The translations under genes and the position numbers were made by a program. Shown here one piece after another: positions 8,141 to 22,711 of a stretch of DNA of 64,000 nt. The stretch lies in assembly GCF_003417465.1 (NCBI RefSeq), contig NZ_QVMV01000028.1, positions 186,001 to 250,000 on the forward strand, written 5' to 3'. Below the pieces are notes generated by a model. The model saw only the letters and a program-made list of their open reading frames with translations, had not been told where the DNA came from and searched no databases. The stretch comes from Wenzhouxiangella sp. 15190 (GTDB lineage: Bacteria; Pseudomonadota; Gammaproteobacteria; Xanthomonadales; Wenzhouxiangellaceae). Each line of letters begins with the position of its first letter. Positions within the stretch are counted from its first letter, which is position 1.

Positions 8141-8596
8141 ATGATCGAGGGTCTCAGCCGTAACGCCGCGCGCAACATCTTTCTGGGCGGCTCCATCATT
8201 TTCTTCATCATTTTTGTTGGCCTGACGGCCCACAGTCACTACTACATCGTCACCGAATCCACCGATCACGAAGGGCTGACCGAGTCGGTCAAGCTCGGAA
8301 AGCACGTGTGGGAGAAGGAGTCGTGCATCAACTGCCACAGTCTGCTCGGCGAAGGCGCGTATTTCGCGCCCGAGCTCGGCAACGTATGGCTGCGCTACGG
8401 CGGTGCGGACAACCCGGAAGCCGCGCGCCAGGGGATCAAGTCCTGGATTCGCCTACAGCCGCTGGGCGCTCCGGGCCGCCGTCAGATGCCCTCCTACGAT
8501 CACCTGAGTGAAGAGGAACTGGACGCCCTGGTCGATTTCTTCCGCTGGACCAGCGAGATCGACACGCAAGACTGGCCACCGACGATTTCGGGATAA
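8141..8596 (+). CDS. norC: Nitric oxide reductase subunit C
   Basis: NorC is the membrane-anchored monoheme cytochrome c that feeds electrons to NorB for reduction of NO to N2O. The 151-residue protein has one N-terminal membrane helix (~12-30), the heme site CINCH (62-66) followed by the diagnostic SLLGEGAYFAPELGN, and a likely axial Met in RRQMPSY. The C-terminal DTQDWPP segment is also typical. The start is set by an AGGAGGG site. It is the first gene of norCBQD and lies behind an FNR-type box. Confidence 0.95.
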   Translation: MIEGLSRNAARNIFLGGSIIFFIIFVGLTAHSHYYIVTESTDHEGLTESVKLGKHVWEKESCINCHSLLGEGAYFAPELGNVWLRYGGADNPEAARQGIKSWIRLQPLGAPGRRQMPSYDHLSEEELDALVDFFRWTSEIDTQDWPPTISG

Positions 8597-8609
8597 GAGG
8601 GAGAGCCGA

Positions 8610-9965
8610 ATGAAATATCAGACCCAGAAAGTCGCCTATCCGTTTTTCATCGCCGCGCTGGCCCTGTTCGCCGCACAGGTACTGTTCGGACTGCTGGCCG
8701 GAGCGGTGTATGTGTGGCCGGAGTTCATGGCCGAGGCCATGCCCTTCCACATCATGCGCATGAGCCACACCAACCTCCTCGTCGTATGGCTGCTGATCGG
8801 CTTCTTCGGCGCCACCTACTACCTGCTGCCCGAGGAAGCTGAATCCGAACTCCACAGCCCGATGATCGCCTATATCCAACTGGGCATCTTCGTCTTCGCA
8901 GGCGCCGCGGCCCTGGTCGGCTACCAGTTCGGCATCCACGAAGGCCGTGAATTTCTGGAACAACCGACGTGGGTCAAGATCCTGCTGACCATCTCGTTCC
9001 TGATGTTCCTCTACAACGGTTCCCGTACGCTGCTGGCGGGCCGCCGAACGGCCATTTCCATGATCCTCATGGCCGGCCTGTGGCTGGCCGCCATCTTCTG
9101 GCTGTTCTCCTTCTACAACCCGGCCAACCTGTCGCTGGACAAGATGTACTGGTGGTATGTCATCCACCTCTGGGTGGAGGGTGTCTGGGGCCTGATCATG
9201 GCCTCGCTGCTGGCCTACCTGCTGGTCAAGATGTCCGGCGTCGACCGCGAGATCATCGAGAAGTGGCTGTACGTAATCGTCGGCCTGGTGCTGTTCGCCG
9301 GCCTGCTCGGCACCGGTCACCACTACTACTGGATCGGCACGCCCGCCTACTGGCAGCCGCTGGGCAACATCTTCGGCGCGCTCGAGGTGTTGCCACTGTT
9401 CTCGATGGTGATCTTCACCTTCTATATGTTCTGGCAGGGCAGCCGCAATCATCCCAACAAGGCGGCGATTCTCTGGACTCTCGGTTGTGCGGTCATGGCC
9501 TTCTTCGGCGCCGGCGTGTGGGGGCTGATGCACAACATGTCCTGGGTCAACTACTACAGCCACGGCACGCAGGTCACCGCCGCCCACGGCCACCTCGCCT
9601 TCTACGGCGCCTACGTGATGCTCAACCTGGCGGTCATCACCTACGCCATGCCACAGCTCCGCGGCAAGCTGCCCTACAACCAGATCCGCAACATGTGGAG
9701 CTTCTGGCTGATGACCGGCGGCATGGCCTTCATGACCTTCACCCTGACCTTCGCCGGCGTCGTCCAGACCCACCTGCAGCGCGTCATGGGCGAGAACTAC
9801 ATGACAACGCAGGACCAGATCTGGGTGTTCTACGCCATGCGCTTTGGTGCCGGCATCATCGTGGTCATCGGTGCGCTGATCTTCCTGTGGGCCACCCTCG
9901 GCAAGCCGCGCGAGCAAACACCCGGCGGTGCGTCGCACATGGCCGTCGGCAGCGCGGATGAGTGA
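8610..9965 (+). CDS. norB: Nitric oxide reductase subunit B
   Basis: NorB is the catalytic subunit of the cytochrome c-dependent NO reductase, a heme-copper oxidase relative with heme b, heme b3 and non-heme iron. The 451-residue protein carries HIMRMSHTNLLVVW, the HLWVEGVWG segment with the iron-ligand His and Glu, the HHYYWIG pair, and HGTQVTAAHGHLAFYGAY with heme ligands. About twelve membrane helices are expected. The ATG at 8610 follows AGAGGGAGA and lies 14 bases after norC. The norQ start overlaps its stop. Confidence 0.95.
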   Translation: MKYQTQKVAYPFFIAALALFAAQVLFGLLAGAVYVWPEFMAEAMPFHIMRMSHTNLLVVWLLIGFFGATYYLLPEEAESELHSPMIAYIQLGIFVFAGAAALVGYQFGIHEGREFLEQPTWVKILLTISFLMFLYNGSRTLLAGRRTAISMILMAGLWLAAIFWLFSFYNPANLSLDKMYWWYVIHLWVEGVWGLIMASLLAYLLVKMSGVDREIIEKWLYVIVGLVLFAGLLGTGHHYYWIGTPAYWQPLGNIFGALEVLPLFSMVIFTFYMFWQGSRNHPNKAAILWTLGCAVMAFFGAGVWGLMHNMSWVNYYSHGTQVTAAHGHLAFYGAYVMLNLAVITYAMPQLRGKLPYNQIRNMWSFWLMTGGMAFMTFTLTFAGVVQTHLQRVMGENYMTTQDQIWVFYAMRFGAGIIVVIGALIFLWATLGKPREQTPGGASHMAVGSADE

Positions 9966-10764
9966 AGCCGAACGGCGTACCGACCCCTCGCCGGAACTGC
10001 CCTGGTACCGCGAGACCGCCGGCGAGTGTCATTTTTTCGAGGCGGCCTGGAAGCAGGGGCTCCCACTGCTGCTCAAGGGCCCGACCGGCTGCGGCAAGAC
10101 CCGCTTTGTCGCGCACATGGCCGCCCGACTGGGGCGGCCGCTGTTTACCGTTGCCTGCCACGACGACCTCACGGCCGCGGACCTGACCGGTCGCTACCTG
10201 CTCTCCGGCGGGGAGACGAAGTGGGTGGACGGCCCGCTCACCCGGGCCGTACGCGAAGGCGGCATCTGTTACCTCGACGAAGTGGTCGAGGCGCGCAAGG
10301 ACGTCACGGTCGTCATGCACCCGCTCACCGACGACCGCCGCATCCTGCCGCTGGAGCGTACCGGTGAAGTCCTCGAAGCACCGCCGGAATTCATGCTGGT
10401 CGTCTCCTACAATCCCGGCTACCAGCACGTTCTGAAATCGCTCAAGCCGAGCACGCGCCAGCGCTTCGCCGCGCTGAGCTTCGATTTCCCGCCGCCGGAG
10501 GTGGAAACGGACATCGTGGCCGCCGAGAGCGGCCTGTCGAAGGATCTGTGCGCCGGCCTGATCAACCTTGCCCGCCGCATTCGCGAACTCAAGGGCAAGG
10601 ATCTCGAGGAAGGCGTCTCGACCCGCCTGCTGGTCTACTGCGCCAGCCTGGTTGCCGGCGGCATGGCCATGGAAACCGCCGCCCGGGCCACGCTGATCCA
10701 GCCGCTGAGCGACGACGAGGACGTCATCGCCGCGCTCGAGGAACTGCTCTCGCACACGTTCTAA
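9958..10764 (+). CDS. norQ: NorQ, MoxR-type AAA+ activator of NO reductase
   Basis: NorQ works with NorD to insert the non-heme iron into NorB. The 268-residue protein has a Walker A GPTGCGKT (41-48), a DLTGRYLLSGGETKWVDGPL segment with the MoxR-type insert, and a Walker B ICYLDEVVEA. The ATG at 9958 overlaps the norB stop by eight bases, which implies translational coupling. Length and order match the norCBQD pattern. Confidence 0.93.
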   Translation: MSEAERRTDPSPELPWYRETAGECHFFEAAWKQGLPLLLKGPTGCGKTRFVAHMAARLGRPLFTVACHDDLTAADLTGRYLLSGGETKWVDGPLTRAVREGGICYLDEVVEARKDVTVVMHPLTDDRRILPLERTGEVLEAPPEFMLVVSYNPGYQHVLKSLKPSTRQRFAALSFDFPPPEVETDIVAAESGLSKDLCAGLINLARRIRELKGKDLEEGVSTRLLVYCASLVAGGMAMETAARATLIQPLSDDEDVIAALEELLSHTF

Positions 10765-10800
10765 GAAACCTCTGATCACATGCACGGAGTGTGAGTCCCG

Positions 10801-12735
10801 ATGCCCGAATGGCTCGAATTCGAGGAACTCGCCGGCCGCTGGTGGCATCGCTGGGCCTCATCGGCAACCAGCTATCCGACCCATGCCGAGGCCGCTGTCG
10901 AGTTCGAAACCCTGCGCGATGCCCTGGCGGTCTACTTCCGTGCGCTCGGGGGTCCGACCGGTATCACCCTGACCACATCGCGCGCGACCGGCCAGGACCA
11001 CCGGCTGAGCTGGCGCCAGCGCCTGGGGCTCGACCAGGAGCCGATGGAGTTGGCCCGACTCGATGCTGAGCACCTGATCCTGCCGCAACGCAACGCCCTG
11101 TTCCCCGACCCCGAACGCAACCGCCTGCTGTATTTCTGGCAGACCGCCTTTCTGGCCTTCAGTCGCCTGCCACCGGCGACACCCGATCCGCTTCAGCGCG
11201 ATCTGCTCTACCTGGCGGCCTCGGCCGAGGCGCTCCAGGCGCTGCTACGCGAGTTCCCCGGCTGGCGTGCGCGCTACGCCGAGCTGGCCGCGGGGCTGAT
11301 CCGCCTGCGGCCTTCGCGCCGCCTGCCGCCGGCCGAAGATGCCGTCGAACAGGTCATTCTCCGCCTGCTGGGCAAAAGCGTCGAACTCGACCAGCGTGCA
11401 ACCGACCTGTACAGGGCCGTGACCGACAACCCCGGAATCATCCGCGATTTTCGCGCCCCGTCCGGCTATCGGCCACCACTGCCGGTGCCGCTATGGCCCG
11501 CGGCCACCGCCGGTGCCGGAACCGACAGCGGGGCCGAACGAGACGACGACGAAGAAGAGGCCGGCGGCGACGCAACGGAAGTCGGCGAACAGATGTTCCA
11601 CGCCCACCGGCGCCGCCTCGACCAGACAGAGCGCGACGACCCACTGATGCTCAATCCCTTCGAGAAGATCATTTCCTGGGCGGAGATGGTCAACGTCAAT
11701 CGCTCGGTCGAAGATGACGACGAGGACGAAGCCCGCCAGGCCGCCGAAGGGCTCGACCAACTGACCCTGTCCAAACACCGAAAGAAAGCGGCCACGCGTC
11801 TGAAGATGGGGCTGGAGGTCGCCTCCGCGGCTGTTCCCGAAACTGCACTGCAGTCCGATGTCACATGGCCGGAATGGCACTACGGCCGCCGGCGCTATCT
11901 ACCCGATTTCTGTGCCGTACAGGTTCTCGAGCCCGGACTGGCCGGCGAAGACTGGTCGCCGGATACCGGCACGCGGGCCCGCATCAGGCAGGTGCGGCGG
12001 CAGTTCGAGGCGCTCAGGCCGCGGCGCGAACTGCTGCGCGCCCAGCTCGATGGCGACGAGTTCGACACCGACGCCCTGGTACGCATGGTCACCGAGCGCG
12101 CCGCCGGCCATTCCGGCTCGGAGCGCATCTACTCGGCCTGGCGCGATACCTCGCGCGACCTGGCCGTCGCCACCCTGGTGGACGTGTCGCTGTCGACGGA
12201 CTCCTGGCTCGACGACCGCCGCGTCATCGACATCGAAAAGGAAGCCCTGCTGGTGCTGGCCAACGGCATCGACGCCTGCGGCGACGAGCAGGCCGTCTAC
12301 AGCTTCACATCCCACCGGCGCAAACGCGTGGAGATCACGCCGCTCAAGCGCTTCGACGAGCCCATGGATCACGGCATCGAACGCCGCATCGCCGCGCTCG
12401 AGCCCGGTCGCTACACGCGCATGGGCACGGCCATCCGGCACGTGGCCGCGGAGCTGGCCGAGAGATCCAACCGCCACCGCCTGCTGCTGGTGCTGACCGA
12501 CGGCAAGCCCAATGACACCGACCACTACGAAGGCCGCTACGCCATCGAGGACACGCGCATGGCTGTGCGCGAGGCCCGCCTCCATGGATTGGTGGTTTTC
12601 GGCGTCACCATCGACGCGCGCGCGCGTCAGTACTTCCCGCTGATCTTCGGACGCAGCGGCTACGCCATCGTGCCCCGAGCCGCCGCGCTGGCCACCGCCC
12701 TGCCCGCGATCTACCGCCAGCTGGTCCAGCGTTGA
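10801..12735 (+). CDS. norD: NorD, VWA-domain partner of NorQ
   Basis: The 644-residue protein is the expected fourth gene of norCBQD. Its C-terminal third is a von Willebrand A domain with an intact MIDAS: DVSLS (near residue 461), a threonine in the RYTRMGTAIRH segment and TDGKPND. The middle has an acidic linker rich in Asp and Glu (about residues 240-260 and 300-312). NorD binds NorQ and brings the ATPase to NorB for iron insertion. It begins 36 bases after norQ. It ends seven bases from the stop of the convergent MoxR-type gene. Confidence 0.93.
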   Translation: MPEWLEFEELAGRWWHRWASSATSYPTHAEAAVEFETLRDALAVYFRALGGPTGITLTTSRATGQDHRLSWRQRLGLDQEPMELARLDAEHLILPQRNALFPDPERNRLLYFWQTAFLAFSRLPPATPDPLQRDLLYLAASAEALQALLREFPGWRARYAELAAGLIRLRPSRRLPPAEDAVEQVILRLLGKSVELDQRATDLYRAVTDNPGIIRDFRAPSGYRPPLPVPLWPAATAGAGTDSGAERDDDEEEAGGDATEVGEQMFHAHRRRLDQTERDDPLMLNPFEKIISWAEMVNVNRSVEDDDEDEARQAAEGLDQLTLSKHRKKAATRLKMGLEVASAAVPETALQSDVTWPEWHYGRRRYLPDFCAVQVLEPGLAGEDWSPDTGTRARIRQVRRQFEALRPRRELLRAQLDGDEFDTDALVRMVTERAAGHSGSERIYSAWRDTSRDLAVATLVDVSLSTDSWLDDRRVIDIEKEALLVLANGIDACGDEQAVYSFTSHRRKRVEITPLKRFDEPMDHGIERRIAALEPGRYTRMGTAIRHVAAELAERSNRHRLLLVLTDGKPNDTDHYEGRYAIEDTRMAVREARLHGLVVFGVTIDARARQYFPLIFGRSGYAIVPRAAALATALPAIYRQLVQR

Positions 12736-12742
12736 TGGAATA

Positions 12743-13831
12743 TCAGATCAGGTCGCGCTGGGCGTAAACCGCTTTCCAGACCTCGCCGCGCTTCTGGGCG
12801 ATTTCCGTGTCGAAGTAGTGGCGTAACCGGCGGCGATCGTCGGCCTGGTCTTTCAACGCCGAACCGATGATGAAATGGACCAGATTGTCGATAACCACTT
12901 CACCGTCGGTGTAGTAACGGGCATGGATGCACAGTGCATGGCCGACACTGACGGCCTCGGCCGTCGACATCGTTGCACCGGCGAGTCGGTCGGTCGAGCG
13001 CCCGCTCAGGGACTGGCCGTTGCGCAGTTCATGGAAAATAGTGACGAGAGCCATGATCACGGATGGATCGATCCGCACATCGATGCCGGCATACTCGTTC
13101 AGCCGGCCCACCTCGCGCGACACGACCTCGATTTCGTCTTCGACATCACGGATCGAGGGAACCGTCTCGAAATTCATGCGCCGCTTTAGCGCGGCACTCA
13201 TCCGGTTGACCCCCTCGTCGATGCTGTTGGACGTGGCGATCACGTTGAAGCCGGCGCGCGAGTAGAGAACGCCGGACCGGCCACTGAGTTCCGGCACCGT
13301 GATCAGGCGGTCGGACAGGATCGACAGCAACGCATCCTGCAGCGGCTGGGGGCAGCGGGCCACTTCCTCGAAGCGCACGATCTTGCCGTCACGCATGCCG
13401 CGATAGATCGGGCTGGGCACCAGCGCCTCCGGTCTGGGGCCGCCCTGGGCAAGCAGCGAATCGTTCCAGCTGTAGAGCAGCTGGTCGACTTCGCTGAGTG
13501 CCCCGCCCTGCAGGGTCAGAGAGGAGTCGCCGGAAATGGCCGCAGCGAGCAGCTCGGACAACCAGGACTTGGCGGTCCCCGGCTCGCCGACCAGCAGACA
13601 ACCGCGGTCGGTACACAGCGCGATCACCACGCGCGTGATCACGCCCGGTTCAATCACGATCTTGCGACTGATTTTCAACTCGTCATCGCCGAGCACGAAC
13701 TTCTCCACCGCCAATGGCGAGAGCTTCCATCCCGGCGGCACGGGATGCTTGTCCCATTGAGCCAGACGTTTGAGCTCATCGGCAAAGGCCATTTCGGCCG
13801 GTGGTCGTTGCAGCTGGGGCTTTCGGCTCAC
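12743..13831 (-). CDS. MoxR-family AAA+ ATPase
   Basis: The 362-residue protein has a Walker A GEPGTAKS (~79-86), Walker B-type VRFEEVARC and sensor NVIATSNS followed by DEGVNRMSAALKRRMNFE. These place it in the MoxR/AAA_5 group, whose members usually activate a target together with a VWA protein. The GTG at 13831 is fixed by an AGGAGG site eight bases upstream, inside the end of the preceding gene, and its first four bases (GTGA) overlap that stop codon. No VWA gene belongs to this operon; the nearest is the convergent norD. In actinobacteria a similar ATPase sits with DUF5682 and VWA genes, which are absent here. The target is unknown. Confidence 0.85.
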   Translation of the reverse strand: MSRKPQLQRPPAEMAFADELKRLAQWDKHPVPPGWKLSPLAVEKFVLGDDELKISRKIVIEPGVITRVVIALCTDRGCLLVGEPGTAKSWLSELLAAAISGDSSLTLQGGALSEVDQLLYSWNDSLLAQGGPRPEALVPSPIYRGMRDGKIVRFEEVARCPQPLQDALLSILSDRLITVPELSGRSGVLYSRAGFNVIATSNSIDEGVNRMSAALKRRMNFETVPSIRDVEDEIEVVSREVGRLNEYAGIDVRIDPSVIMALVTIFHELRNGQSLSGRSTDRLAGATMSTAEAVSVGHALCIHARYYTDGEVVIDNLVHFIIGSALKDQADDRRRLRHYFDTEIAQKRGEVWKAVYAQRDLI

Positions 13832-16089
13832 GGCTGTTTCCTCCTGCCACCGCGCTGCTCGGGCGCCATGCGATCCTGAGGCAGGATACGGGGCAGCTCC
13901 TCGAGCGGAACCGTGCCGTTGATGACGTGGTCGAGCGCGCTGTCGCGCATGGTGATCAGGCCGGCGTCGAGCGCCTGCCAGCGCAACTCCCCGGCCGGCG
14001 GCTGCAGGGAAATCACCCGCCGAATATCGTCGCTGACCTGCAGGTACTCGACCACGGCAATCCGGCCACGCGTCCCCAGGCCGTTGCAATGCTTGCAGCC
14101 GCGACCCCGAAAGCAACGGAAGTTGACCGGCACACGCTCCGGAAACAACTCCCGGAGAATTCGTTCGTCAGGTTCGGCCGGTTCCCGGCAGTGCTCGCAG
14201 ATGCGCTTGGCCAGGCGCTGGGCGATGATTGCCAGAAGCTCCCCGGCGATCGAGTTGGGCAATACCTGCAGATCATAGAGGCGCTGCAGCGCGTCGACTG
14301 CGTCGTTGCTGTGCAGGGTCGACAGCACCAGGTGCCCGGTCTGAGAAGCTCGCATGGCCTCCAGCGCCGTCGCCCCATCCCGGATTTCGCCCACCATGAT
14401 CGCATCGGGGTCCTGGCGGACGAAGGAACGCATGGCGTCGGCGAAGCTGAAGCCGATATCGGGACGCGCCCGCGTCTGCTGGATATTGTCGATGGAGTAC
14501 TCGATCGGGTCCTCGGCGGTGATTACCTTTCGGCGACCGTCGTCGGCCAGTTCCTGCAACGCGGCGTACAGCGTTGTCGACTTGCCCGATCCGGTCGGGC
14601 CCACCACCAGGACCAGACCGGCCGGATTGTCGAGCAGCCGCTGGTAGAAACCGGCGACGCGTTCGGACATGCCCAGCTCGCGCAAGCCCAGCACCCGGCC
14701 GGTCTGCGACAACAGCCGGATGACTGCATGCTCGCCGTGCAGTGAAGGCTGGATCTGAATGCGCAAATCGTAGTTGGTCGTACCCACCCGCATATGCGAT
14801 CGCCCGCCCTGCGGCAGACGGCGCTCGGCAATGTTGATTTCGGCGCGTACCTTGATGACGTTGATAAGGCCGGCATGGTCACGTGAAGTAAGCTGATAAT
14901 GGGTCAGATCGTGCAACTCACCGTCGACGCGAATGCGAATCCGGATCCGGTCACCATAGCGCTCGACATGAATGTCGGAAGCCTTGGCGCTGACCGCATC
15001 GAGCAGGATGGACTCGTACAGAGAAACCAGGTAGTGACTGAGCTCGCGATCGGAACTGTCGAGCAGGTCTTCGGAATGAGCCGGCTCCTTTTTCTGCTCG
15101 GTCCAGCGCAGCATTTCACTGCCGCGCGAGGACAGATCGATCACCTGCCACAACCGCCGAAAGTCGGTGGGCGTAACCAGCAGCTTCACCACCGACTTGA
15201 AGGCCTGCACCCGCGCCACATCCTCGGTCGGGACATCGGGGTTGTCAGTAGCCACGTAAAGAATGCCGCCGCGTGAGCGGATCGGCACCAGGCGCTGGTT
15301 ATCCAGGAAAGTCTTGGAAAATCGTCGAAACAGGGCGAGATCGAGATCCTTGAGCAGATCGTCGGCGCTGGTCAGTTGCAGACCGTAGCGGTCAGCGAGG
15401 CTGCGATAGAGATCCATGTCCACAATGTCGTTGCGACGCTGTAGCACCGAAATCACCGGCTCGCGACGCCGACGTGCTTCCACCCGTGCGTCGGCGAGTT
15501 GCTTTTCGTCGACATATCCCAGGTCGATCATGATCTCGCCGGCATCGTGGGCAAGGTTGACCGGCCCGAGTTCACGCCGCTTGAAGCCGCCATCCATGCG
15601 GGCCCGTGCCACGACCAACGGCACGAGGGGATCGTTACCCTCGAGCGTGACCAGATGACCACCCTCGGCAAGTTGCTCGGCCAGACCTTCCCATTTGACG
15701 ATCCGGGCACTGCACAGGACCAGATCGAAAGGCGCCAGATCGGGCGCACCCAGTTCGCCCTCGCCGAGAATCAAGCGCACATTCTCGATTCCCGCCCGCG
15801 CCAGGTTGGCGGTGGCGATATCAGCCACCTCGGAGCTTCGCTCGATCACCACGACATCGTCGGCCAAGCGCGCGAGCCCGGCAGCCAGATAGCCGGCGCC
15901 GATGCCGACCAGCAGAACACGTCGGCGCACACCAAGAGGCTCTATCAGCTCCAGGATACGCTCGACCGCCTCGCGTGTCGGAATGCTGCGGCCGGAAACA
16001 ATTCCTTCCAGATCACCCGAAGTCAGGAACCCCGAACGCGGCACCGAATCGAGCAGGTGCCTGATGCGTTCCGAAGGCGACGTAGTCAC
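13828..16089 (-). CDS. GspE/PilB-type secretion ATPase with N-terminal isoaspartate-methyltransferase-like domain
   Basis: This 753-residue protein has three parts. Residues ~1-165 resemble protein-L-isoaspartate O-methyltransferase: GRSIPTREAVERILELIEPL, a SAM-type loop LLVGIGAGYLAAGLARL (~58-74), ENVRLILGEG and APFDLVLCSARI. Residues ~180-300 look like a GspE/MshE N-domain (IMIDLGYVDEKQLADARVEA). The rest is a complete type II secretion/type IV pilus ATPase with Walker A GPTGSGKSTT (~492-501), GEIRDGATALEAMRASQTGH, the HSNDAVDALQRL segment and a four-cysteine zinc site (CEHC ~630, CKHC ~661). The GTG start has GGAGG seven bases upstream. No pilin, GspF or secretin gene is nearby. It is coupled to the MoxR ATPase downstream. 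Whether the methyltransferase part is active is unknown. Confidence 0.85.
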   Translation of the reverse strand: MTTSPSERIRHLLDSVPRSGFLTSGDLEGIVSGRSIPTREAVERILELIEPLGVRRRVLLVGIGAGYLAAGLARLADDVVVIERSSEVADIATANLARAGIENVRLILGEGELGAPDLAPFDLVLCSARIVKWEGLAEQLAEGGHLVTLEGNDPLVPLVVARARMDGGFKRRELGPVNLAHDAGEIMIDLGYVDEKQLADARVEARRRREPVISVLQRRNDIVDMDLYRSLADRYGLQLTSADDLLKDLDLALFRRFSKTFLDNQRLVPIRSRGGILYVATDNPDVPTEDVARVQAFKSVVKLLVTPTDFRRLWQVIDLSSRGSEMLRWTEQKKEPAHSEDLLDSSDRELSHYLVSLYESILLDAVSAKASDIHVERYGDRIRIRIRVDGELHDLTHYQLTSRDHAGLINVIKVRAEINIAERRLPQGGRSHMRVGTTNYDLRIQIQPSLHGEHAVIRLLSQTGRVLGLRELGMSERVAGFYQRLLDNPAGLVLVVGPTGSGKSTTLYAALQELADDGRRKVITAEDPIEYSIDNIQQTRARPDIGFSFADAMRSFVRQDPDAIMVGEIRDGATALEAMRASQTGHLVLSTLHSNDAVDALQRLYDLQVLPNSIAGELLAIIAQRLAKRICEHCREPAEPDERILRELFPERVPVNFRCFRGRGCKHCNGLGTRGRIAVVEYLQVSDDIRRVISLQPPAGELRWQALDAGLITMRDSALDHVINGTVPLEELPRILPQDRMAPEQRGGRRKQP

Positions 16090-16148
16090 GCAGTAGCCTC
16101 CAATGCCAGCAGGAAATCGACGAAACTCAATCGCGGCAATCCAAGCAT
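16086..16148 (-). CDS. Possible 20-residue leader ORF overlapping the GspE-fusion start
   Basis: An ATG at 16146-16148 opens a 20-codon frame (MLGLPRLSFVDFLLALEATA) whose stop codon overlaps the GTG start of the next gene in a GTGA arrangement. The overlap is the same type used between the next two genes. It could be a leader peptide for translational coupling or the remnant of a longer gene; the frame stays open about 45 codons further upstream. No strong ribosome site is visible. Confidence 0.3.
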   Translation of the reverse strand: MLGLPRLSFVDFLLALEATA

Positions 16149-16845: not shown

Positions 16846-18141
16846 ATGTCCAATGGCACCCTCCTGTCTGCATACCGGTCCATTCGCCTGGCGCGATTGC
16901 TGCCTTGCCTGTTCATTCTGCTGGTGTTCTCGACGGCAACACCCGCGGCCGAATCAAGCGATGAATCACCGCTGACGCTGGAACGGGCCGTGTCACTGGC
17001 GACATCGGCTGCCGACCCCGCCGTTCAGCAATTCGTGGCCCGCGGCGAGGCACTCGAGAGCGACGCCGTGGCCGATGCCCAGCTGCCGGACCCAATGGTC
17101 TCGGCCCAGGTCGTCAACGTGCCGACCGACACCTTCCGGCTGGACCAGGAAGGCATGACCCAGGCCTTGCGACTTGGGCTGCGCCAGGAAATCCCGCCTG
17201 GCCGAACGCTGGACATTCGCAGTCGCCAGCGCAGTACGGAAGCCGGGGCCGAGCGCGCGCAAACCGATCTCGCGTTGCGTCGGATCGCGCTGGAGACCCG
17301 TCAGGCGTGGTTTGAACTTGCCTGGCAGGACCAGGCTGTCGCGGTACTCCGTAACAGCCGGAATCGAATTGAACAACAGATCGAATCCCTGCAGTCCCGG
17401 TTTGCCGCCGGCGGACTGCATTCACAGGCTTTGTTGCGCACTGAACTGGAACTATCCCTGCTCGACGACCGGATTGCCGAACACCGTCGCATGGCCGACC
17501 GTGCGCGGGCGGCACTCTCCCGCTACATCGGTAGCGACGCCTATCGCCCCCTGCCCGAGCAGTTGCCGGATTTCGAAGCAACGTCGACCGATCTCGACGA
17601 ACTGCAGGATCAATTGGTTTCCCATCCTGCCGTCGAAGCCAAGCAAGCCCGGATTGAAGCCGCCGAACTCGGTATCGAACTGGCTGAACAGGCCTACAAG
17701 CCCAGACTGGCCATCGAGGCCGGCTACGGCCTTCGATCCGAGCGTCCCGACCTGGCCAGCATCGGGGTGACATTGTCGCTGCCGTTGTTTGCCGAGAATC
17801 GGCAGGACAAGCGACACACGGCGGCGGTTCAACGCAGCAGTGCTGCCCAATTCGACCGCGATGCGCTGCTGCTGGACCTCAAGCGCCAGCTCGAACAGGC
17901 AGTCGCCGACTGGCAGCGCTACCGGCAACGACTCGACCTTTACGAAAAGGTTGTGGCCGAGCGTGCCAGGGACACGGTCGAGGCTTCGGTCACCACCTAT
18001 GCAAACGGGCAAACGGACTTTGCCGAACTCATTCGCAGCCAGCTTGCCGATCTGGAAGCGCAGATCAAGCGGGCCGAACTGCAAGCCCGGGCCGGAGCAG
18101 CCTGGGCACAGATCCTCTATCTGGCGGGAGAAACATCGTGA
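16846..18141 (+). CDS. TolC-family outer-membrane efflux protein (CusC/CzcC type)
   Basis: The 431-residue protein has a signal peptide ending near TPAAAES and two outer-membrane-efflux repeats with long helices, for example RQAWFELAWQDQAVAVLRNS and ADWQRYRQRLDLYEKVVAER. Length and position fit the CzcC/CusC class, which forms the outer-membrane channel of a tripartite metal pump. The ATG has an AGAGAGG site upstream. The gene overlaps cusB by four bases (GTGA). No lipobox is visible, unlike E. coli CusC. Confidence 0.88.
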   Translation: MSNGTLLSAYRSIRLARLLPCLFILLVFSTATPAAESSDESPLTLERAVSLATSAADPAVQQFVARGEALESDAVADAQLPDPMVSAQVVNVPTDTFRLDQEGMTQALRLGLRQEIPPGRTLDIRSRQRSTEAGAERAQTDLALRRIALETRQAWFELAWQDQAVAVLRNSRNRIEQQIESLQSRFAAGGLHSQALLRTELELSLLDDRIAEHRRMADRARAALSRYIGSDAYRPLPEQLPDFEATSTDLDELQDQLVSHPAVEAKQARIEAAELGIELAEQAYKPRLAIEAGYGLRSERPDLASIGVTLSLPLFAENRQDKRHTAAVQRSSAAQFDRDALLLDLKRQLEQAVADWQRYRQRLDLYEKVVAERARDTVEASVTTYANGQTDFAELIRSQLADLEAQIKRAELQARAGAAWAQILYLAGETS

Positions 18142-19562
18142 ACAAGTTGCAAGTCATCGTCATTGCACTGGCGGCTGCCGCCGTCGGCTTTCTGGCGGCC
18201 TGGTGGGGTCTGAGCGGCTCCGATTCGGGCAGCCAGGAGGGCTCGGGTGAATCCGGGCGGGAAATCCTCTACTGGGAGGCGCCGATGGACCCGAACTACC
18301 GGCGCGATGAGCCCGGCAAGTCACCCATGGGCATGGACCTCGTCCCGGTCTACGCCGACGAAGCGGGCTCGGGGGGCGACCAGGGCCAGCCTTCCATCCG
18401 GATCAATCCGACCGTCATCAACAACATCGGCGTCAAGCTCGCCACCGTCGAACGCCGGACCCTGGCGCGCGACATCGACGCCGTGGGCCTGGTCACGCCC
18501 GACGGCGGTCACATTGCCCACGTTCATGTCCGTACAGAGGGCTGGATCGAGGTGCTGCATGTCGAAACGGAAGGTGAACGGGTATCGGCCGGAGAGCCCC
18601 TGTTCGAGATCTATTCCCCGGCCCTGGTGAGCGCGCAGGAAGAGTACCTGCAGGCAGTGAGAATGGGCAACCAATCGCTCGTTACGGCTTCAAAATCCCG
18701 GCTGGCGTCACTGGGCATGCGTGAAGAGCAAGTCCGTGCCCTGCAACAGCGCGGGTCGCCGAACCGACTCTTCACGGTTCACGCCCCCCAGGACGGCCAC
18801 CTGCTCGAACTCAATATCCGCCAGGGCATGTTCGTGCAACCGGGCACGACCATCATGAGCGTCGCCGACCTGTCCCGGATCTGGGTGGAAGTCGATATTT
18901 TCGAGGGACAGGTCAACCGGGTCGAACCGGGTCAGCAGGCCGTCATGCAGCTTCCCTGGGCCGAATCCGGCAATGAATGGCGGGGTGAAGTCGACTACGT
19001 CTATCCGAGCATTCGACAGGAGACACGTACCGGGCGCGTGCGCCTGACGTTCGACAATCCCGACCTGACGCTCAAGCCCAACATGTACGCCCGCGTCTCG
19101 ATCGCGGCCGACCCGCATCCCGACACCCTCGTCGTGCCCACCCAGTCCATCATCCGCACCGGCCAGGGTGAACGCGTCATCCTGGCGCTGGGAGAAGGCC
19201 GCTTCCGGCCTGCGGAAGTCGTCACGGGCCTGGAATCCGACGGCGTCACGGAGATCACGGACGGCCTCGCCGAAGGCGAACGGATCGTCGTCTCCAGTCA
19301 ATTCCTGATCGACTCGGAGGCCAGTGCCGACGCCAGCCTGTTGAGAATGGTCGACGGCGAGGATGCTTCGGATTCTGAAATGGATCACGAGATGGATCAT
19401 GGCACGGACCAGGAGATGGACCACAGCGCCGAATCAGGATCCGCCGAAGCCATGGATCACGAAGGTCACCAGAACGATGCCGACATGGACCACACGGAGA
19501 TGGATCATTCCGGACACGATAGCCACGACGAGGACGATGGTGAATCCGGAGGTCGGCCATGA
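18138..19562 (+). CDS. cusB: RND efflux periplasmic adaptor, CusB type
   Basis: The 474-residue adaptor joins the inner-membrane pump to the TolC channel and delivers metal. After a signal anchor it has the heavy-metal-binding segment YWEAPMDPNY...PGKSPMGMDLVPVY (~50-80), which marks the copper/silver CusB group. A barrel-sandwich lipoyl-like core (HVHVRTEGWIEVLHVETEG) and beta-barrel domains follow. The last ~60 residues are an unusual tail of MDHEMDH-type repeats with HSGHDSHDE, rich in Met, His and Asp, which could bind Cu or Ag. It starts with GTG and overlaps both neighbours by four bases. Confidence 0.9.
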   Translation: MNKLQVIVIALAAAAVGFLAAWWGLSGSDSGSQEGSGESGREILYWEAPMDPNYRRDEPGKSPMGMDLVPVYADEAGSGGDQGQPSIRINPTVINNIGVKLATVERRTLARDIDAVGLVTPDGGHIAHVHVRTEGWIEVLHVETEGERVSAGEPLFEIYSPALVSAQEEYLQAVRMGNQSLVTASKSRLASLGMREEQVRALQQRGSPNRLFTVHAPQDGHLLELNIRQGMFVQPGTTIMSVADLSRIWVEVDIFEGQVNRVEPGQQAVMQLPWAESGNEWRGEVDYVYPSIRQETRTGRVRLTFDNPDLTLKPNMYARVSIAADPHPDTLVVPTQSIIRTGQGERVILALGEGRFRPAEVVTGLESDGVTEITDGLAEGERIVVSSQFLIDSEASADASLLRMVDGEDASDSEMDHEMDHGTDQEMDHSAESGSAEAMDHEGHQNDADMDHTEMDHSGHDSHDEDDGESGGRP

Positions 19563-22500
19563 TCGGTGCCATCATCCGCTGGTCCATCCGGAACCGCTTT
19601 CTGGTTCTGATGCTGTCGGCATTGCTGGCTGCCTGGGGCACCATCGCGATGCTCAAGACGCCGCTGGACGCCATCCCGGACCTGTCGGACGTGCAGGTCA
19701 TCGTCAAGACGACCTATCCCGGGCAGGCGCCACAGGTGGTCGAAGACCAGGTGACCTATCCGCTGACGACCGCCATGTTGTCGGTGCCCGGCGCCACGAC
19801 CGTCCGCGGCTACTCTTTCTTCAACGATTCCTTCGTCTACGTCATCTTCGAGGACGGTACCGACCTGTACTGGGCGCGTTCGCGCGTACTCGAATACTTG
19901 AGCCAGGTCGCGCCCACCCTGCCCCAGGAGGCCCGCCCTGCGCTGGGCCCGGATGCCACCGGCGTGGGCTGGGTCTATCAGTACGCCCTGATCGATCGAA
20001 CCGGCCAGCACGATCTGGCCGAGCTGCGCTCGATCCAGGACTGGTTTCTAAAGTATGAGCTGCAGACCGTCGAGGGGGTTTCGGAAGTCGCCTCCATCGG
20101 CGGGATGGTCCGCCAGTACCAGGTCGTGGTCGACCCGGACAAGCTGCGCGCCCATGACATTCCCCTGACGCGGGTCCGCGAAGCCATCCAGAGCGGCAAT
20201 ATGGAAACCGGCGGCCGGGTCATCGAAATGGCCGAAGCCGAGTACATGGTCCGCGCCACCGGCTACGTCGACTCGCTCGAAGATATCGAAGCCATTCCCG
20301 TGCGTACCACCGACGATGGCGTACCCATACGCATCGGGGACATTGCGAAAGTACAGTTCGGACCGGAATTGCGCCGTGGCGTCGGCGAGCTCAACGGCGA
20401 AGGGGAAGCCGTCGGGGGCGTGATCGTCATGCGATTCGGCGAAAACGCCATGGCCACCATCGAGCGGGTGAAGGAAAAGCTGGAAACGCTCAAGGAGGGA
20501 CTGCCCGAGGGCGTCGAAGTCGTCGAAACCTATGACCGGTCCTCACTGATCAACCGGGCGGTCGACACGCTACGAGAGAAGCTGATCGAGGAATTCATCG
20601 TCGTCGCGCTGGTGTGCCTGATCTTCCTGTTTCATTTCCGCTCTTCCCTGGTGATCGTGCTGAGCCTGCCGCTGGGCATTCTCTCGGCATTCATCATCAT
20701 GCAGATCCAGGGCATCAACGCCAACATCATGTCGTTGGGCGGTATCGCCATCGCCATCGGTGCCATGGTGGACGCTGCCATCGTGATGATCGAGAACTAT
20801 CACAAACACCTCGAGCACGCCGAAGGCAAACTCGAGGGCGAAGCGCGCTGGAACGCGCTGGCCGATGCAGCCGTGGAAGTCGGTCCGGCACTGTTCTTCT
20901 CTTTGCTGATCATCGCACTGAGCTTCGTGCCCATCTTCGCCCTGGAGGCCCAGGAAGGCCGCATGTTCAAACCGCTCGCCTTCACCAAGACCTATGCCAT
21001 GGCGGCCGCCGCGGGACTGGCAATCACCCTGGTGCCCGTGCTGATGGGATACTTGATCCGCGGGCACATAACACCGGAACACAAGAATCCCATCAATCGC
21101 TTCCTGACCTGGGTCTACCGGCCGATCCTTGCAGCCGCCCTGCGCTTCCCGATTTCGACCGTGGCATTGACCCTGATCATCCTCGCCAGTGCCTGGATAC
21201 CCTACAGTCGCATCGGTAGCGAGTTCATGCCGGAACTGAATGAAGGCGACCTGCTCTACATGCCGAGCGCCTATCCGGCCGCCTCGGCCGGCAAGATGGC
21301 GGAAATCCTGGGCCAGACCAATCGTCTGATCATGACGGTGCCGGAGGTCGAAACCGCCTACGCCAAGGCCGGCCGTGCCGACACGGCCACCGACCCCGCA
21401 CCACTGACCATGATCGAGACCACCATCCGGCTCAAGCCGCGATCTGAATGGCGGGACGGTATGACCATGGACAAGCTCAAGGCCGAACTCGACGAACTGG
21501 TCCAGGTACCCAGCCTGACCAATACCTGGATCATGCCGATCAAGAATCGCATCGACATGCTGGCAACCGGCATCAAGACACCCGTCGGGGTCAAGGTATC
21601 CGGTGCCGACCTGGAAGTCATCAACCAGATCGGCGAGGACATCGAGGACGTCATTGAAGAAGTGCCGGGTACCGCCTCGGTCTATGCCGACCGCGTGACC
21701 GGTGGTCGCTATGTCACAGTCGATGTCCAGCGCGAGGAAGCCGCCCGCTTCGGACTCAACATTCGCGACGTGCACGAAATCGTGCGCTCGGCCGTCGGTG
21801 GCATGAGCGTCGGTGAAAGCGTGGACGGACTGGAGCGCTACCCGATCAACCTGCGCTATCCGCGCCACGTTCGCGATTCGCTCGAGGATCTGGACAATCT
21901 CACCATCGTCACGCCCAAGGGCGCGCAGATTCCGCTTTCCGCCGTGGCGAATATTGCCGTCGAGACCGGCCCTGGGGTGATCCGGACCGAAAACGCCCGT
22001 CTAAACGGCTGGATCTACATCGACGTCAACGACAAGGACCTGGGCGGCTATGTCCAGCGCGCCAAGCGGGCCGTCGCCGAGCAGGTCGAACTGCCGGCCG
22101 GCTATTCGCTGGGCTGGTCCGGGCAATACGAGTTCATGCAACGTGCCGCAGACAAGCTCAAGCTGGTGGTGCCGGCCGCGATCGGCATCATCGTCCTGCT
22201 GTTGTTCATGAACTTCCGCAATCCGATCTCGGTCCTGATCATCCTGGGAACATTGCCATTGTCACTGGTCGGCAGTTACTGGCTGCTCTACCTGCTGGGC
22301 TATAACCAGTCCGTGGCGGTCGGCGCCGGCATGATTGCCCTGGCCGGCGTGGCCGTGGAGATCGGTGTGCTCATGCTCGTTTATCTGGACCAGGCGCTGG
22401 CCCGCCACCGCAGCGAAGCCGCAGAAGCGGGACACGCCCTGTCACGGACCGACGTGATGCAGGCCGTCACCGACGGCGCGCTGCTCAGGGTTCGTCCCAT

Positions 22501-22711
22501 CATGATGACCGTGTCGGTGATCATCGCGGGCCTGCTGCCGATCATGCTCGGCCATGGCACGGGCTCGGAGATCATGCGCCGCATCGCCGCCCCGATGGTC
22601 GGCGGCATGATCAGCGTCACGATCCTCACACTGCTGGTGGTCCCGACCATTTACTACCTCTGGAAATCCTTCGGACTGAAGTCCACCGGCAACAGGGAGG
22701 CACGATCATGA
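19559..22711 (+). CDS. cusA: Heavy-metal efflux RND pump, CusA type
   Basis: CusA-type pumps are trimeric inner-membrane proton/metal antiporters. The 1050-residue protein has the classic order: an N-terminal helix with TPLDAIPDLSDVQVIVKT, the GGIAIAIGAMVDAAIVMIEN segment with the proton-relay Asp, and a second half with GMIALAGVAVEIGVLMLVYL. Methionines at 618 (TMIETT) and 667 (NRIDMLATG) lie in segments where CusA carries its binding-cleft methionines, which favours Cu/Ag over Zn/Co. Start and stop overlap the neighbouring genes, so the cassette is one transcription unit. Confidence 0.92.
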   Translation: MIGAIIRWSIRNRFLVLMLSALLAAWGTIAMLKTPLDAIPDLSDVQVIVKTTYPGQAPQVVEDQVTYPLTTAMLSVPGATTVRGYSFFNDSFVYVIFEDGTDLYWARSRVLEYLSQVAPTLPQEARPALGPDATGVGWVYQYALIDRTGQHDLAELRSIQDWFLKYELQTVEGVSEVASIGGMVRQYQVVVDPDKLRAHDIPLTRVREAIQSGNMETGGRVIEMAEAEYMVRATGYVDSLEDIEAIPVRTTDDGVPIRIGDIAKVQFGPELRRGVGELNGEGEAVGGVIVMRFGENAMATIERVKEKLETLKEGLPEGVEVVETYDRSSLINRAVDTLREKLIEEFIVVALVCLIFLFHFRSSLVIVLSLPLGILSAFIIMQIQGINANIMSLGGIAIAIGAMVDAAIVMIENYHKHLEHAEGKLEGEARWNALADAAVEVGPALFFSLLIIALSFVPIFALEAQEGRMFKPLAFTKTYAMAAAAGLAITLVPVLMGYLIRGHITPEHKNPINRFLTWVYRPILAAALRFPISTVALTLIILASAWIPYSRIGSEFMPELNEGDLLYMPSAYPAASAGKMAEILGQTNRLIMTVPEVETAYAKAGRADTATDPAPLTMIETTIRLKPRSEWRDGMTMDKLKAELDELVQVPSLTNTWIMPIKNRIDMLATGIKTPVGVKVSGADLEVINQIGEDIEDVIEEVPGTASVYADRVTGGRYVTVDVQREEAARFGLNIRDVHEIVRSAVGGMSVGESVDGLERYPINLRYPRHVRDSLEDLDNLTIVTPKGAQIPLSAVANIAVETGPGVIRTENARLNGWIYIDVNDKDLGGYVQRAKRAVAEQVELPAGYSLGWSGQYEFMQRAADKLKLVVPAAIGIIVLLLFMNFRNPISVLIILGTLPLSLVGSYWLLYLLGYNQSVAVGAGMIALAGVAVEIGVLMLVYLDQALARHRSEAAEAGHALSRTDVMQAVTDGALLRVRPIMMTVSVIIAGLLPIMLGHGTGSEIMRRIAAPMVGGMISVTILTLLVVPTIYYLWKSFGLKSTGNREARS

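Follow-up and report, generated by a model that had tools for sequence, protein, structure and literature searches.

MoxR ATPases are widespread and chaperone-like with exact roles that are unclear, and PMC3893208 divides them into seven subfamilies, YehL among them, whose members generally co-occur with a VWA protein. Here we describe a two-gene locus of Wenzhouxiangella sp. 15190 in which the constant neighbour of a YehL-type MoxR gene is a fusion of a methyltransferase-related head to a GspE/PilB-type assembly ATPase. The locus lies in a 64,000-nucleotide stretch of contig NZ_QVMV01000028.1 (the window). An earlier note made from the letters of the window (the sequence-only reading) had proposed a fusion linking protein repair or methylation to an assembly motor; the fusion holds up, the repair link finds no support, and the MoxR partner gene had been overlooked. 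The two-gene arrangement is conserved, the motor is complete, and the head has the glycine loop of its relatives but not their isoaspartate motif. The parts of the locus, in window coordinates, are these:

13828..16089, minus strand: PCMT-MshEN-T2SSE fusion gene, a single open frame of 753 residues (Pfam; 31 copies)
15556..16089, minus strand: PCMT-fold domain, residues 1-178 (profile, motifs, fold comparison)
15370..15555, minus strand: helical segment, residues 179-240, aligning with the PilB N-terminal region and helical in the model
15145..15366, minus strand: MshEN domain, residues 242-315 (Pfam PF05157, 31.8 bits)
13894..15033, minus strand: T2SSE motor, residues 353-732, catalytic motifs intact (Pfam; motif residues invariant in 31/31)
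14086..14199, minus strand: cysteines C631, C634, C665 and C668, a putative zinc site (invariant in 31/31)
13846..13872, minus strand: family-specific C-terminal tail RMAPExRGG, residues 740-748 (31/31)
12743..13831, minus strand: YehL-type MoxR AAA+ ATPase, 362 residues, next gene in 31/31 (PF07728; 51.5% identity to YehL)
16097..16101, minus strand: GGAGG, possibly a ribosome-binding site, 7 bases 5' of the fusion GTG (read from sequence)

The fusion gene starts with GTG, has no internal stop and ends in TGA. Pfam applied to the whole protein finds PCMT (PF01135) at residues 7-148 (65.7 bits, 6.4e-18, cut-off 20.3; a scan limited to residues 1-170 gives 69.4 bits), MshEN at 242-315 (cut-off 23.1) and T2SSE at 353-732 (357.9 bits, cut-off 24.9), and six divergent members scanned separately pass all three cut-offs. 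The head forms no part of the GspE/PilB models, which begin their matches at residue 185 or later; the phmmer alignment to PilB 5zfr runs from residue 183 on. A stop-free frame of 740-761 residues spans all the domains in 31 genomes, ruling out an assembly artefact or chance frame (the matches L122 and L141-L143 overrun the gene's own stop and cross no internal one). Thus the joining of a PCMT-like N-terminus to a complete GspE/PilB-type motor, as first read from the letters, is real, on both profile and fold evidence.

The MoxR-type gene stands directly downstream of the fusion on the same strand in all 31 loci. In the window its GTG overlaps the TGA of the fusion by 4 bases (GTGA); elsewhere the interval from the fusion stop to the start of the matched MoxR stretch is -16 to +56 bases, with L104, L109 and L152 ending inside the MoxR gene. 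The product, with an AAA_5 domain, was compared with E. coli YehL (51.5% identity over 355 residues) and the NorQ-like protein of the window (23.9% over 109 residues, E 0.11), and on these identities is closest to YehL.

Within the family of the window (Wenzhouxiangella and kin), the partner MoxR occurs in 21 of 43 genomes: all 19 that have the fusion, and two of the 24 that do not, G011 and G012. In G011 the MoxR gene precedes homologues of YehM and YehP and, where yehQ would stand, a third gene that at 1e-6 does not match E. coli YehQ. Across a class sample, a MoxR match at 1e-70 was found in 12 of 369 genomes, and the ten of these that lack the fusion showed a nearby match to YehM in nine cases and to YehP (VWA) in eight, while at 1e-6 neither the whole fusion nor its motor or head was matched in any of them; L207 has neither a yehM nor a yehP match, L204 ends before the yehP start and L202 holds part of yehP. 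A match to the YehP of G011 was absent from all 12 fusion genomes tested (of 31) and from G012, the sole positive being the genome of the query itself. YehM and YehP being usual beside YehL-like genes, and YehP unmatched in the fusion genomes tested, the fusion occupies their place in this branch. On a tree of YehL-type proteins the fusion-linked MoxRs require two changes and may or may not form one clade; this tree, like those of motor and head below, used 19 of the 31 members, picked to avoid near-copies.

The head is nearest by sequence to solved protein isoaspartate methyltransferases (PIMTs; 1jg1, E 9.7e-16). A model of residues 1-180 (predicted local distance difference test, pLDDT, 85.6, weak at 27-33) has PIMT 2yxe as its top VIA-align match (Z 20.9, root-mean-square deviation 3.0, 177 residues aligned); ranks 1-12 are all PIMT/PCMT, and the first other family is TrmR at Z 15.7. 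Both the profile match above the Pfam cut-off and this structure prediction therefore agree with the kinship first proposed. The loop for S-adenosylmethionine (SAM), GxGxGY (G62, G64, G66, Y67), is invariant in the 31 copies, as are R18, G33, P37, E150 and G175; residue 83 is always E or D (E83 in the window), and residue 110 is D or E in 30 of 31. SAM binding by the head is plausible from these residues. The ratio of nonsynonymous to synonymous change (dN/dS) is 0.05-0.33 for the head in the 15 of 16 pairs that gave a finite value, with dS near saturation in several pairs, and identity among 19 members is 22-75% for the head, the least conserved part, against 66-96% for the motor. By these measures the head is under purifying selection, though faster-evolving than the motor.

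It could be supposed that the PCMT part is a passive leftover that serves folding or oligomerisation, binds no SAM and has no partner. Its low conservation and its degeneracy in L152-L154 are what such a relic would show, but GxGxGY and the acidic residue 83 are kept in 31/31, head dN/dS is well below 1, and the heads of the 19 members group on one side of a branch and persist in distant families; we consider this explanation very improbable.

The substrate motif of the repair enzymes is GQTISxP, with its serine. At its place the head reads G-[RH]-[SGT]-[ILMF]-P in 31/31 (GRSIP in the window). Isoaspartate repair by the head is unlikely, since proline stands where the TIS serine would be in every copy. 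The head segment before and around this motif is also shortened; PIMTs L010-L012 of the same genome retain GQTISQP, and their YxDxxLPI stretch has no counterpart in the head. Residues 1-170 miss the curated PIMT cut-offs (NF001453, 79.8 vs 188 bits; TIGR00080, 62.9 vs 159.05), and three separate PIMT genes of the genome lie above that of NF001453. These data count against the view of the sequence-only reading, in which an active carboxyl methyltransferase would repair or modify isoaspartyl residues of pilus or secretion components; the fold, the SAM loop and the purifying selection would all suit it, yet with serine and substrate segment altered, cut-offs missed and PIMTs already present, it is improbable. 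Another odd PCMT-like gene of this genome, L013, reads DQFMM at the GQTIS place.

The motor half is nearest by sequence to PilB 5zfr (2.7e-93) and GspE 4ksr (3.1e-92). The residues examined in Walker A, Asp box, Walker B and His box are invariant in 31/31, together with the four cysteines of the putative zinc site. The NCBIfam gspE and pilB models tie at 414.3 bits, below their cut-offs of 630.25 and 675.65. By eye, RLG...Q, which we take to be the MshEN motif for cyclic di-GMP (c-di-GMP), is poorly kept at residues 180-204. The RMAPExRGG tail lies beyond the end of the Pfam motor match, and every one of the 92 instances of MAPExRGG in the loci retrieved belongs to a fusion copy. Between the genome of the window and G035, dN of the motor core is 0.026, against 0.039-0.083 for four ordinary assembly ATPases, so by this measure the fusion motor core is the more constrained.

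An assembly motor would work on an inner-membrane platform of the GspF/PilC type (T2SSF), and these were counted in one genome, that of the window (99.8% complete). It holds five gspE/pilB-like ATPases including the fusion (three further T2SSE matches above the cut-off are shorter, and one is below it) and four platforms (contigs C15, C30, C35 and C54), every one of which has one of the four remaining gspE/pilB-like ATPases within 2 kb. None was found on C26, the contig of the fusion. The earlier statement that no secretion genes are nearby thus holds for platforms, with pilins and secretins outside the profile search, and platforms exist elsewhere in the genome, none of them near the fusion.

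PilT and PilU are motors that share the platform of another motor. The reading that we favour, at a probability of roughly 40%, is that the fusion is an accessory motor using a resident platform, that its head binds SAM, and that a YehL-type MoxR dedicated to it brings about its maturation. In this scheme the locus is a two-gene operon. The first gene encodes a complete GspE/PilB-type motor, presumably a hexamer like its relatives, to which a PCMT-fold head has been added at the N-terminus, and the second a YehL-type MoxR that has the motor as neighbour instead of YehM/YehP(VWA). A resident pilus or type II secretion machine might lend the motor its platform. The head would bind SAM (or S-adenosylhomocysteine) and a protein; either motor activity would answer to SAM, or the head would methylate some component of the machine, though not at isoaspartate. 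The MoxR could assemble, activate or remodel the motor, perhaps gripping the RMAPExRGG tail. We infer SAM binding, a physical complex of both products and the role of the tail.

Ranked next is a protein-remodelling machine rather than a secretion motor, in which the head would recognise clients without repairing them and motor and MoxR would unfold or mature them. There is a precedent in PCMTD1, which is thought to recognise clients without repair in the CUL5 ubiquitin ligase, and whose complex is entry 17 of the structure comparison with the head model. Loss of the repair serine with retention of the fold suits this explanation, as does the lack of a platform for the fusion motor in a nearly complete genome that has four. 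But the protein retains MshEN, the zinc-site cysteines and the assembly-ATPase motifs, for which a soluble remodeller should have no use, and the platform-sharing motors named above offer another account of the missing platform. The sole invariant neighbour is a MoxR ATPase, a group called chaperone-like in PMC3893208, which again favours a remodeller; on balance we regard it as possible, if somewhat unlikely.

Several observations weigh against the accessory motor. That the motor borrows its platform from another machine is guesswork, and the gene pair has no platform, pilin or other gene as a conserved neighbour: the next commonest after MoxR is present at 9 of 31 loci, counting open reading frames of at least 90 residues called by length rather than by a gene finder. 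Motif I has lost its acidic residue (residue 60 is L, V, H or Q in 31/31), and the heads of L152-L154 have drifted strongly. One MoxR close to the fusion-linked ones, that of G012 (61%), has efflux genes near it but neither the fusion nor YehM or YehP, and no fusion remnant was found in the 17 kb around it. The full-length model is confident over about the first 320 residues and not over most of the motor (mean pLDDT 59; below 50 over 484-753), and because the motor half is so poorly modelled, an arrangement of head and motor cannot be claimed.

The fusion is present in 31 distinct genomes in all. Named close relatives (L018-L025) are six Wenzhouxiangella records, one Gammaproteobacteria metagenome-assembled genome and Alishewanella agri. 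Within the family of the window, full-length copies occur in 19 of 43 genomes, and a sample of 299 genomes of the order, searched with the head of the window's protein at E 1e-15, has it in the same 19 only, other PCMT matches looking like separate genes. Further searches were made at E 1e-120, at which, as at the threshold used for the order, diverged or broken copies may be missed: the class sample has it in 2 of 369 genomes (that of the window and G642), the family of G642, another gammaproteobacterial one, in 1 of 3 (G642), and the family of Alishewanella in 11 of 295. For the class and the Alishewanella family, 2-3 candidates were scored per genome.

In the motor tree the 19 members lie on one side of a branch with support 100/100, against 27 other ATPases, and in the head tree on one side of a branch against 15 other PCMTs. 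Since motors and heads each group in this way, both trees fit a single fusion event; both carry long-branch warnings. Pairwise distances of PCMT, T2SSE and MoxR correlate (r 0.83-0.92; 171 pairs, 19 members), as would be expected of parts inherited together.

Other settings were considered and set aside. Among the matches listed, none of 5000 plasmid records covers 80% of the protein, nor do any of 39 matching phage records. No unfused PCMT was found beside such a motor: 15 distinct non-fusion PCMTs from the order sample (L092-L102 and five further long-frame regions, one of which is the L095 gene) show neither a T2SSE nor a MoxR match close by at 1e-5. As for known defence systems, PADLOC mad2 matches only residues 32-153 of the fusion (52.3 bits) and mad8 and mad3 only its P-loop (23.6 and 20.5 bits), and a PADLOC search with the MoxR partner gave no match.

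Around the gene pair, a nor cluster (norC, norB, norQ, norD by eye) at 8141-12735 is convergent to the MoxR gene; through its NorQ, two different MoxR-like ATPases lie close together in the window. A NorD-like VWA gene adjoins the pair in 4 of 31 loci. On the other side, a cusCBA-like efflux cluster (by eye; 16846-22711) is divergent from the fusion, and its first gene is a neighbour in 9/31 loci; the MoxR of G012 (L177) also adjoins genes similar to this cluster. Since no more than 9 of 31 loci have neighbours of this kind, we rejected a functional tie of the pair to the efflux or nor genes beside it. Genes of one cluster (L025:7052-9925, L107, L145-L147, L149-L151) lie near the pair in eight loci, seven of them of the Alishewanella family; L025:7052-9925, the member scanned, is MASE3-PAS-GGDEF-EAL, pointing to c-di-GMP turnover beside an MshEN-bearing motor. 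A small gene of 110-126 residues follows MoxR in seven loci (L147-L151, L153, L154), all of the Alishewanella family.

Literature searches, with subscription journals mostly outside their coverage, listed no paper on the fusion, in keeping with the earlier remark that known GspE proteins have no methyltransferase. PMC9765406, a candidate MoxR-GspE link, was dismissed, both terms standing only in its reference list. A motor with a methyltransferase-related head and a YehL-type MoxR partner appears undescribed. Tentatively, and with less confidence than in the accessory motor itself, we suggest a new MoxR system, in which the obligate partner of a YehL-type MoxR would be a secretion-type rotary motor with a SAM-binding head and not a VWA protein: two ATP-driven machines tuned by a methyl donor, as a SAM-gated pilus motor or a motor rebuilt into a remodeller. 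One YehL-type branch is tied in 31/31 loci to a single protein with all parts recognisable. This makes it a compact case in which the target of a YehL-type MoxR can be tested, and one in which a pilus or secretion motor may be connected to SAM, the methyl donor.

Compared with known systems, the motor shares MshEN, T2SSE, Walker, Asp and His boxes and the four-cysteine site with GspE/PilB ATPases, and differs from them in its PCMT head, conserved tail, lack of an adjoining platform and scores below the cut-offs. With PIMT/PCMT enzymes (PF01135) the head shares the fold (177 residues, Z 20.9), the SAM loop, E83 and the closing LGPV strand, whereas it lacks the TIS serine, has a shorter substrate segment, scores below the PIMT cut-offs and is fused to a motor. 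PCMTD1 in CRL5 (9oma) and the PIMT-like chain of Paracoccus complex I (8qby) likewise place a PCMT fold inside another machine, but as separate chains rather than fused to a motor. From E. coli yehLMPQ, whose YehL the partner resembles at 51.5% identity over 355 residues, the predicted operon differs in having no adjoining YehM/YehP (VWA): here the sole constant neighbour of the MoxR is the fusion.

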